NCBI RefSeq assembly: GCF_000517625.1
Contig: NZ_CP007055.1
Location: forward strand, 1,922,001-1,986,000
Length of the DNA stretch: 64,000 nucleotides
From: Halostagnicola larsenii XH-48
Lineage (GTDB): Archaea > Halobacteriota > Halobacteria > Halobacteriales > Natrialbaceae
Reading direction: 5' to 3'
Every line of letters starts with the position of its first letter. Within the stretch, counting starts at the first letter, position 1. This document shows positions 41,696 through 42,995 of the stretch, one piece after another. A model generated the notes under the pieces. It had not been told where the DNA came from, did not search any database, and was given only the letters and a program-made list of their open reading frames with translations. Made by a program: the position numbers and the translations under genes.

Positions 41696-42069
41696 GTTTC
41701 AGATCCTCAATTCGATTATCGATAAGTTTTCCGGCGCTCCGTACCGCCCTCGGGCCTCACCCATCCCCCGGCAATGTCACCCGCCACTGACGGCCTCCAG
41801 CGACCTGCTCCCATTCTGACTCGAGTTGCCACTTCGGATATCGATGATAGCGTTCGCGGACCGGATTCGAACCACGGGGATTTCGCTTCGTTCGTCCTCT
41901 GGGCCGCGAATTCGTATTGGCGATGCGTCTCCTCGCGAGTTTGCGAGCGACAAAATGCGCGGGACCGGATTCGAACCACGCGAAGACGTGCTCGCTTCGC
42001 TGCGCGCGACTTCTCTCATTCGAATCCGTATTGGCGATGCTTCTCCTCGCGAAATTGCTCGGAGAAGCA
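41696..42069. other. Gene-free region downstream of tRNA-Leu
   Basis: No gene is credible here. Most of the region is taken by two partial, diverged copies of the tRNA-Leu 3' end and its downstream flank (described separately). The left 150 bases (41696-41850) hold AT-rich sequence, probably the promoter of the small membrane protein gene that starts at 41695. Confidence 0.55.
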
Positions 42070-42070
42070 T
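41857..42070 (-). repeat. Two diverged partial copies of the tRNA-Leu 3' end and flank
   Basis: The acceptor/T-arm sequence of tRNA-Leu (plus-strand GCGCGGGACCGGATTCGAAC at 42071) recurs at 41957, and in shorter form (GGACCGGATTCGAACCA) at 41858. The segment next to the tRNA 3' end also recurs: a CGTATTGGCGATGC-T/G-TCTCCTCGCGA block at about 42026-42050 and 41913-41936. Unit spacing is about 114 and 104 bp. Just past the intact tRNA 3' end, ATGCTTCTCC/GGAGAAGCAT forms a 10-bp stem (42037-42070). The copies are too short to be tRNAs. Confidence 0.75.
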
Positions 42071-42154
42071 GCGCGGGACCGGATTCGAACCGGCGGACCC
42101 CTACGGGACAGCGTCCTAAGCGCTGCGCCGTTGGCCTAGCTTGGCTACCCGCGC
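42070..42154 (-). tRNA. tRNA-Leu (anticodon UAG)
   Basis: This is a complete 85-nt class II tRNA on the minus strand. The acceptor is GCGCGGG/CCCGCGC with discriminator A. The D-arm is GCC...GGC. The anticodon stem CAGCG/CGCTG carries the loop C-T-TAG-G-A. A long variable arm TCCCGTAGGGGTCC and T-arm GCCGG-TTCGAAT-CCGGT follow. CCA is not encoded. A TATA-like TTCTTACTCG on the minus strand lies about 25-35 nt upstream (42179-42188). No intron is seen. Confidence 0.95.
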
Positions 42155-42226
42155 GCAGGCTACCGTTCCCGCGATTCGAGTAAGAACCTGTCGATCCGAT
42201 CGAGTCTCCGGTCCGGCCCGCTCCCA

Positions 42227-42403
42227 TCAGTCGTGGACCAGCGGCTCTTCGGGGGACCAATCCGGCGGAACGATGAAGGTCACGTGCTCTGAATCCCGCA
42301 ATTGGTGGAGCTCCGCCGCCTGTTCGGCCAGCGATCGATCTCGGTAGGGCATCTCAAGGCCGCAGCCGGTACAGACGAGTTTGCATGTTGGGTCGGTACT
42401 CAT
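42227..42403 (-). CDS. Small zinc-binding-type protein
   Basis: This 58-residue protein starts MSTDPTCKLVCTGCGLEMPY. It has one Cys cluster (C-x3-C-x2-C) and a helix with His residues (AAELHQLRDSEHVTF) that could complete a zinc site. It ends in an acidic segment (PPDWSPEEPLVHD). Such small zinc proteins are common in haloarchaea and function is mostly unknown. I use the ATG at 42403 because it directly precedes the Cys cluster. Confidence 0.65.
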   Translation of the reverse strand: MSTDPTCKLVCTGCGLEMPYRDRSLAEQAAELHQLRDSEHVTFIVPPDWSPEEPLVHD

Positions 42404-42686: not shown

Positions 42687-42995
42687 ATGCACAGTGCGCG
42701 CGACCGCGTCGAGCACGAAGCCTGGCTCGAGGAACTCGAGTTGATCGCGGATCGGCTCGACCTCTCGAGCGAGGCCCGCTCGTACGCTGGCGATCTCTTT
42801 CTCACCGATGTCCCAGAGTCGGATCGGTCCAAACGGGCCGTCCTGGCGGCGAGCATCTACGCCGGCTCGCTTGTCGCTGGCGACGGCCGCACTCAGGGAA
42901 CGGTTGCCGATGCGGCCGACGTCTCGCGGCTCTCGATCCAACAGCGCTGGAAGGACTTACTCGAGACGGCCGGACTCGAGCCCCCGCGGTGGTAA
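42687..42995 (+). CDS. TFB cyclin-box-like mini-protein
   Basis: This 102-residue helical protein shows KRAVLAASIYAGSLVAGDGR, then TQGTVADAADVSRLSIQQRW. This resembles one cyclin repeat of transcription factor B (helix-turn-helix with a V-S-x-x-S-I-Q-x-R-W recognition helix). It lacks the N-terminal zinc ribbon and second repeat of a true TFB, so it cannot replace TFB; it may be a DNA-binding regulator. A TATA-like GATTTATCC at 42654-42662 lies 25-33 nt before the ATG. Confidence 0.72.
   Translation: MHSARDRVEHEAWLEELELIADRLDLSSEARSYAGDLFLTDVPESDRSKRAVLAASIYAGSLVAGDGRTQGTVADAADVSRLSIQQRWKDLLETAGLEPPRW

Follow-up and report, generated by a model that had tools for sequence, protein, structure and literature searches.

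The attC sites of integrons carry the core consensus RYYYAAC ... GTTRRRY. In these sites, short inverted borders enclose a variable hairpin, and one strand is the active one (PMC2727003). Recombination is also directed at tRNA genes, where tRNA-targeting integrases follow a logic in which the tRNA is restored after recombination (PMC8371274). In the archaeon Methanopyrus kandleri, a palindrome lies downstream of about half of the tRNA genes (PMC5217627). Here we describe the tRNA-Leu(UAG) locus of Halostagnicola larsenii XH-48, which shares some traits with each of these. It lies in a 64,000-nucleotide stretch of contig NZ_CP007055.1 (positions 1,922,001 to 1,986,000), which we refer to as the window.

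Results and Discussion

Anatomy of the tRNA-Leu(UAG) Locus

The units take the form T-hp1-T'-hp2-T, in which T is a direct copy of nt 53-73 of the gene's own tRNA, T' is a reverse-complement copy of nt 54-63 of that tRNA, and hp1 and hp2 are hairpins. At tRNA-Leu(UAG), the order on the minus strand, read 5' to 3', is tRNA, hp1, T', hp2, T, hp1, T', hp2, T (Table 1). The original prediction held that the 3' end of the tRNA is repeated downstream in the same orientation and that its flank is repeated with it. Both statements are borne out. The direct repeat GGACCGGATTCGAACCACG is present downstream at 41858 and 41962 and in the gene itself at 42076, the copies being spaced 104 and 114 bp apart, and 41882-41977 matches 41996-42091 at 76% identity over 96 nt. 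Shuffles predict 0.06 occurrences of the 20-mer CGCGGGACCGGATTCGAACC in the window, where two are present (41958 and 42072). The DNA fold scores mark unit 1 as intact (z -2.8) and unit 2 as degenerate (z +0.8), and as RNA the locus folds better than shuffles (z -3.4). The inverted T-arm copy had been missed. Because TTCGAA in this tRNA is palindromic, T' is easy to overlook here; it is plain at tRNA-Lys(CUU), where GCGCGATTTGAA stands opposite TTCAAATCGCGC, and at tRNA-Thr(CGU) the inverted copy spans 20 nt.

Table 1. Parts of the tRNA-Leu(UAG) array of Halostagnicola larsenii XH-48, in window positions
Feature	Position	Strand	Basis
tRNA-Leu(UAG) gene	42070..42154	-	ARAGORN; Rfam RF00005
Parent T, nt 53-73 of tRNA-Leu(UAG)	42070-42090	-	inside gene
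Unit 1 hp1, GCTTCTCC stem, cap GA-GC-AATTTC-GC-GA	42038..42069	-	direct reading, DNA fold, family covariation
Unit 1 T', GGATTCGAA, reverse complement of the tRNA T-arm 3' half	42019..42027	-	direct reading; family profile nt 54-63
Unit 1 hp2	41977..42018	-	family-wide core; covariation
21-nt core GCGCAGCGAAGCGAGCACGTC of unit 1 hp2	41985-42005	-	
First T copy downstream, 21/21 identity with tRNA nt 53-73	41956..41976	-	
Unit 2 hp1, degenerate	41924..41955	-	direct reading; weak fold
Unit 2 T', degenerate, CGAATTCG	41907..41914	-	direct reading
Unit 2 hp2, GCGGCCCAGAGGACGA..GCGAAATCC type; same type at Leu-TAG in G001 and G003	41873..41906	-	
Second T copy downstream, decayed; first 15 nt intact	41852..41872	-	

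Across tRNA genes, the copied block has sharp edges. Among the copies scored, identity of the downstream copies to the tRNA is 0.92-0.98 over most of nt 53-73 and 0.83 at nt 73; outside the block it falls to 0.29 at nt 51 and, beyond nt 73, to 0.53 and 0.45. T' is complementary to the tRNA over nt 54-63 only. The borders are GATTYGAAC ... GTTCRAATC. The content between copies is always hp1-T'-hp2, about 100 bp (over 403 successive copies, median 98 bp and longest 376 bp).

A structural pairing of T' with the downstream T, kept up by ongoing selection, was considered and rejected: 8 cases were compensated, against 70 T-only and 216 T'-only deviations. An earlier count gave 56 T' positions following the tRNA and 21 following T, some of the 21 being spurious. 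Since T' does not track a changed downstream T, the T'/T helix may be important during exchange and not be kept up continuously. An extra C in the T-loop (GTTCACAATC in place of GTTCAAATC) recurs in downstream T copies from unrelated tRNAs and genera, namely, L007 (Trp), L010 unit 2 (Lys-CTT), L062 (Phe), L106 (Val), and L257 (Phe), and may abolish the copy's function as a T-loop or recombination site. Some hp2 carry nested hairpins in the apical loop (L008, L006, and L275; hp2 of Lys-TTT and Ser-GGA). The Ser-GGA hp2 is ∼40 nt longer in G001, a genome of the same genus, than in H. larsenii, as if hairpins insert into hairpin loops.

Three further observations concern the surroundings of tRNA-Leu. 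Mechanically called ORFs across the array (window 41757-42260) give MRGTGFEP.. and similar translations from the T-arm repeats, and the arrays may be the artifactual source of annotated haloarchaeal hypothetical proteins of that type. A 102-aa ORF ∼0.5 kb upstream of tRNA-Leu (window 42687-42995, plus strand) matches a single TFIIB repeat (PF00382), and similar sequence is found upstream of tRNA-Leu in relatives (L027, L041, L042, L047). In genome G006, tRNA-Leu(UAG) stands twice in tandem with a few bases and an N between the copies (L029, 1407-1582), possibly an assembly artifact at the array.

Hairpin Structure and Strand Polarity

The hp1 stems vary between loci yet pair in 93.9% of cells, compared with 71.7% in shuffles; compensatory change is seen in 9 of 10 pairs, and slid controls give 23-49%. 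hp2 together with T'/T also covaries, at 13 of 21 pairs. A conserved cap, 5'-GA-RC...GY-GA-3', lies between the hp1 stem and its loop and is probably a tandem sheared G.A motif. The tandem GA caps led us to consider an H/ACA- or C/D-like guide RNA, which was rejected: no pocket and no ACA/CUGA boxes were seen by eye, and Rfam returned no match. The cap is polar: 203 occurrences fall on the tRNA sense strand and 24 on the opposite strand, with 12 upstream and 2 in reversed sequence. The sense strand also folds better than the antisense in ∼75% of units with DNA and RNA parameters alike (controls, 51-56%).

Such features could belong to an RNA element: structured 3' trailers of the pre-tRNA that terminate transcription, provide signals for tRNase Z or processing, or switch between two pairings of T', one with the tRNA T-arm and one with the downstream T. 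The strict tRNA linkage, the sense-strand polarity, the strong covariation of the stems, and the RNA fold score of the locus all fit this reading, which we nevertheless judge rather unlikely. Were the hairpins kept as RNA, G.U mismatches would be expected to exceed A.C, and they do so in the acceptor stems of the tRNAs of the same loci, our positive control (24:1, p = 1.5e-6). Capped stems lean the same way at 33:21, which is not a significant excess (p = 0.13), and the ratio across all hairpins is 35:46. Loop type provides a second line of evidence. GNRA is a common type of RNA tetraloop. It accounts for 3 of the 42 tetraloops found here, whereas 87 of 112 cap triloops are GNA, the loop class of extraordinarily stable DNA mini-hairpins (PMC4686876). 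Several isoacceptors, moreover, lack any array, hairpins are swapped inside the genus (see below), and Rfam reports only RF00005, the tRNA itself, at the locus, with no match for the hairpins. The terminator or processing-signal role that had been suggested for a 3' module draws no support from the G.U versus A.C strand-asymmetry test, although it keeps some likelihood.

Because there is no G.U excess and the loops are GNA triloops with few GNRA tetraloops, we favor, short of proof, folded single-stranded DNA of the non-template strand over RNA; the capped stems taken alone lean slightly to RNA. It is mismatch symmetry and loop type that decide this preference, as RNA and DNA folding energies both favor the sense strand. 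The polarity itself could come from exposure of the non-template strand in tRNA transcription.

Distribution among tRNA Genes and Genomes

A copy of the gene's own 3' end matching at least 18 of 21 positions lies downstream of 235 of 392 haloarchaeal tRNA genes (controls: foreign tRNA end 7, upstream 4), in a set that is enriched for positives, since some loci were fetched via unit patterns. Within this set, tRNA-Leu(UAG) is positive in 37 of 38 cases, and Ala-TGC, Ser-GCT, Pro-GGG, and Thr-GGT give none; a Thr-GGT unit is visible in the H. larsenii genome, just beyond the length limits of the count. Per-genome figures are free of the enrichment. At a loose threshold of at least 15/21, they are 26 of 43 tRNA genes in H. 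larsenii, 17 of 30 in G058, 12 of 29 in G040, and 21 of 45 in G039, where foreign tRNA ends average ∼12/21 and upstream matches number 0-2, but 8 in G039. In G039, about a dozen tRNA genes, low-scoring ones included, form a dense cluster on one strand (G039:C1:2635124-2637763) that recalls a provirus-borne tRNA array.

The pattern T'-N(25-55)-T is present in nearly all sampled Halobacteriales genomes, usually with several to two dozen matches each. Among ∼310 other genomes of the phylum, a small minority have 1-2 matches, which is chance level, and hardly any matches arise with the reversed pattern used as control. An exact 26-nt hp2 core is found in 79 stretches among 84,980 species genomes, 78 of them haloarchaeal. 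The remaining one is from a hypersaline "Bacteroidetes" MAG in which the sequence flanking the core matches a haloarchaeal contig. Bacteroidetes bacterium QS_9_68_14 shares tRNA-Val unit sequence with the Halobacteriales MAG QS_4_66_20 (L198, PXTT01000074.1; L255, PXRK01000070.1), and its contig is probably mis-binned haloarchaeal DNA.

The linkage to tRNA genes is close. Copies of the core lie no more than 500 nt downstream of a same-strand tRNA gene in 73 of 81 cases, and the other 8 are mostly near contig ends or next to visible T copies. The core stands behind ∼20 tRNA species, and the flanking T'/T fit the local tRNA. When sites were picked blind to tRNAs, 84 of 88 fell 3' of a same-strand tRNA, at most 400 nt away. 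In the H. larsenii genome, hp1-type caps with a clear stem are all at tRNA 3' ends, that of L440 being at an unlisted tRNA-like end. At this site (∼1500 in L440; G000:C1, about 655,370), GTTCGAATTCGCGCCGGCCCA is followed by a canonical hp1 hairpin, and the Rfam tRNA scan shows no gene; it is probably an unlisted tRNA gene or a tRNA remnant.

This distribution makes it improbable that the hairpins are REP/RAYT-like palindromes mobilized by a Y1 (HUH) transposase that works on folded single strands. Strand-polar single-strand hairpins would suit such an enzyme, and a Y1 transposase was detected in 58 of the 97 genomes. However, PF01797 (Y1) was undetected in the other 39, including the array-rich G040, G058, G288, and G350; because several of these carry many units, a Y1 transposase is not required. 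The hairpins are also confined to tRNA ends, as the blind sites indicate, with no spread through intergenic space.

The viral collections bear on a further possibility. The 26-nt core has no match in 2.9 million viral contigs (IMG/VR), where the T'..T pattern is unspecific. GAGCGNAGCGAG by itself is unspecific as well (25 matches versus 22 in the reversed control). A unit query gave no phage match and one partial match, to a Haloarcula plasmid. We therefore see very little chance that the copies are tyrosine-integrase sites left after repeated integration and excision of integrative elements, even though the block spans the T-loop to the tRNA 3' end in an att-like manner, archaeal integrases prefer tRNA 3' ends (PMC8371274), and tyrosine recombinases are present in 97 of 97 genomes. 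The insert is always the same short hp1-T'-hp2, the same hairpins stand behind many tRNAs, and the loci read showed no integrated element between copies. The original prediction had argued against ordinary att remnants and against an element between the copies, and both points agree with what we find; the att-remnant reading is already largely refuted.

Turnover within the Genus

We compared H. larsenii with G001, in which collinear neighboring blocks are mostly about 80-97% identical. Behind an unchanged hp1, hp2 is swapped at Arg-CCT, Val-TAC, and Asp; at Ser-GGA, hp1 is swapped ahead of an unchanged hp2. Leu-TAG, Ser-CGA, Asp, and Ile-GAT differ by whole units added or removed at T, gain and loss being unpolarized, and the number of units is also unequal at Lys-CTT and Val-GAC. 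By eye, the Leu-TAG array of G004 is a hybrid of two G001 units with its junction at T'. Near-identical hp2 are found at different tRNAs inside one genome, for example, at Arg-UCU and Thr-CGU (score 0.89).

That the tRNA tail and flank were simply duplicated in tandem on the spot, outside any wider system, is scarcely credible and, as a full account, already refuted by the hairpin cores common to different tRNA species: unit number does shift at T between relatives and some adjacent or paralogous units are near-identical (for example, Asp in G001), but neighbors usually carry unrelated hairpins, T' is inverted, and the stems covary. The small tandem expansion first envisaged fails as the whole story, given the unrelated hairpins of neighboring units and the identical hairpins behind other tRNA genes.

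Proposed Explanation

The hairpins are structurally constrained, sense-strand polarized, and common to different tRNA loci, and changes within the genus fall at the T/T' borders. The earlier suggestion of a 3' module that spreads with tRNA ends essentially matches the data. The tRNA-Leu(UAG) locus belongs to a haloarchaea-wide family of hairpin arrays anchored on tRNA genes, and we think the chances about even that these arrays are made of recombining, T-loop-anchored ssDNA cassettes. The family exists whatever its mechanism, for which the argument is one of comparative anatomy.

Only tentatively do we propose an order-wide cassette system in which ssDNA hairpins are recombined into and out of T-loop-anchored arrays, a functional analogue of integron arrays that holds hairpins rather than genes. 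The functional form would be the folded non-template strand, exposed, for example, during tRNA gene transcription or replication. T and T' would serve as recombination anchors, with T/T or T'/T' exchange deleting or joining units, so that hairpin loss and swapping could be explained, and exchange at the T-loop core would import new hairpins while leaving the tRNA 3' end intact. A unit recombining in the T-loop must carry nt 53-73, or else the tRNA gene is broken, and the sharp 53-73 block would follow from this; tRNA-targeting integrases obey the same kind of rule. The benefit may lie with selfish hairpins or in a buffer shielding tRNA genes from integrative elements. Tyrosine recombinases are a possible, unproven agent. 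Several observations count against the cassette model: none of these enzymes, nor any other recombinase, is linked to the arrays, the origin of a new unit with correct T and T' was not observed in the genomes compared, and T' does not follow changes in the downstream T.

In almost every haloarchaeon, a large fraction of the tRNA genes is followed by such arrays, which seem to be undescribed in Rfam and in the openly licensed PMC literature, where we found no earlier description. The arrays bring together the ends of tRNA genes, DNA hairpins, and fast modular recombination, and could represent a new mobile or recombining element, a protective buffer for tRNA genes, or a DNA-structure signal for tRNA transcription. 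These readings are directly testable through Haloferax volcanii genetics.

Comparison with Known Systems

The M. kandleri palindrome (PMC5217627) is likewise a hairpin downstream of many tRNA genes in an archaeon, but it is a single fixed CGTTA(N)9TAACG in one species, without tRNA copies or modules. REP/BIME palindromes with RAYT transposases and the haloarchaeal PATEs (PMC3119063) are similar in being non-coding palindromic repeats that form structured single strands, whereas the arrays are limited to tRNA 3' ends, have borders matched to each tRNA, and are independent of a Y1 transposase.

Tyrosine-integrase att sites in tRNA genes (Williams 2002 classes; review, PMC8371274) share the identity block from the T-loop to the tRNA 3' end, the restored tRNA, and the copy of the 3' end (nt 53-73) in the same orientation. 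In contrast, the array inserts are ∼100 bp, with two hairpins and an inverted T copy, and the arrays are order-wide, with neither an element nor an integrase alongside.

Relative to integron attC sites (IntI, folded bottom strand; PMC2727003), the arrays hold hairpin inserts (median 98 bp) in place of gene cassettes, have no linked IntI, and are anchored on tRNA T-loops with borders that are copies of the host tRNA. The array core is GTTCRAATC versus GTTRRRY in attC, the fourth core base being C, not R. Lacking the attC core consensus, cassette genes, and an element between copies, the arrays are members of neither the integron attC nor the tRNA att class. They have in common with attC sites short inverted borders round a variable hairpin, structure conserved over sequence, a strand polarity that fits a single active strand, a tandem array built on a fixed anchor, and the exchange of modules.
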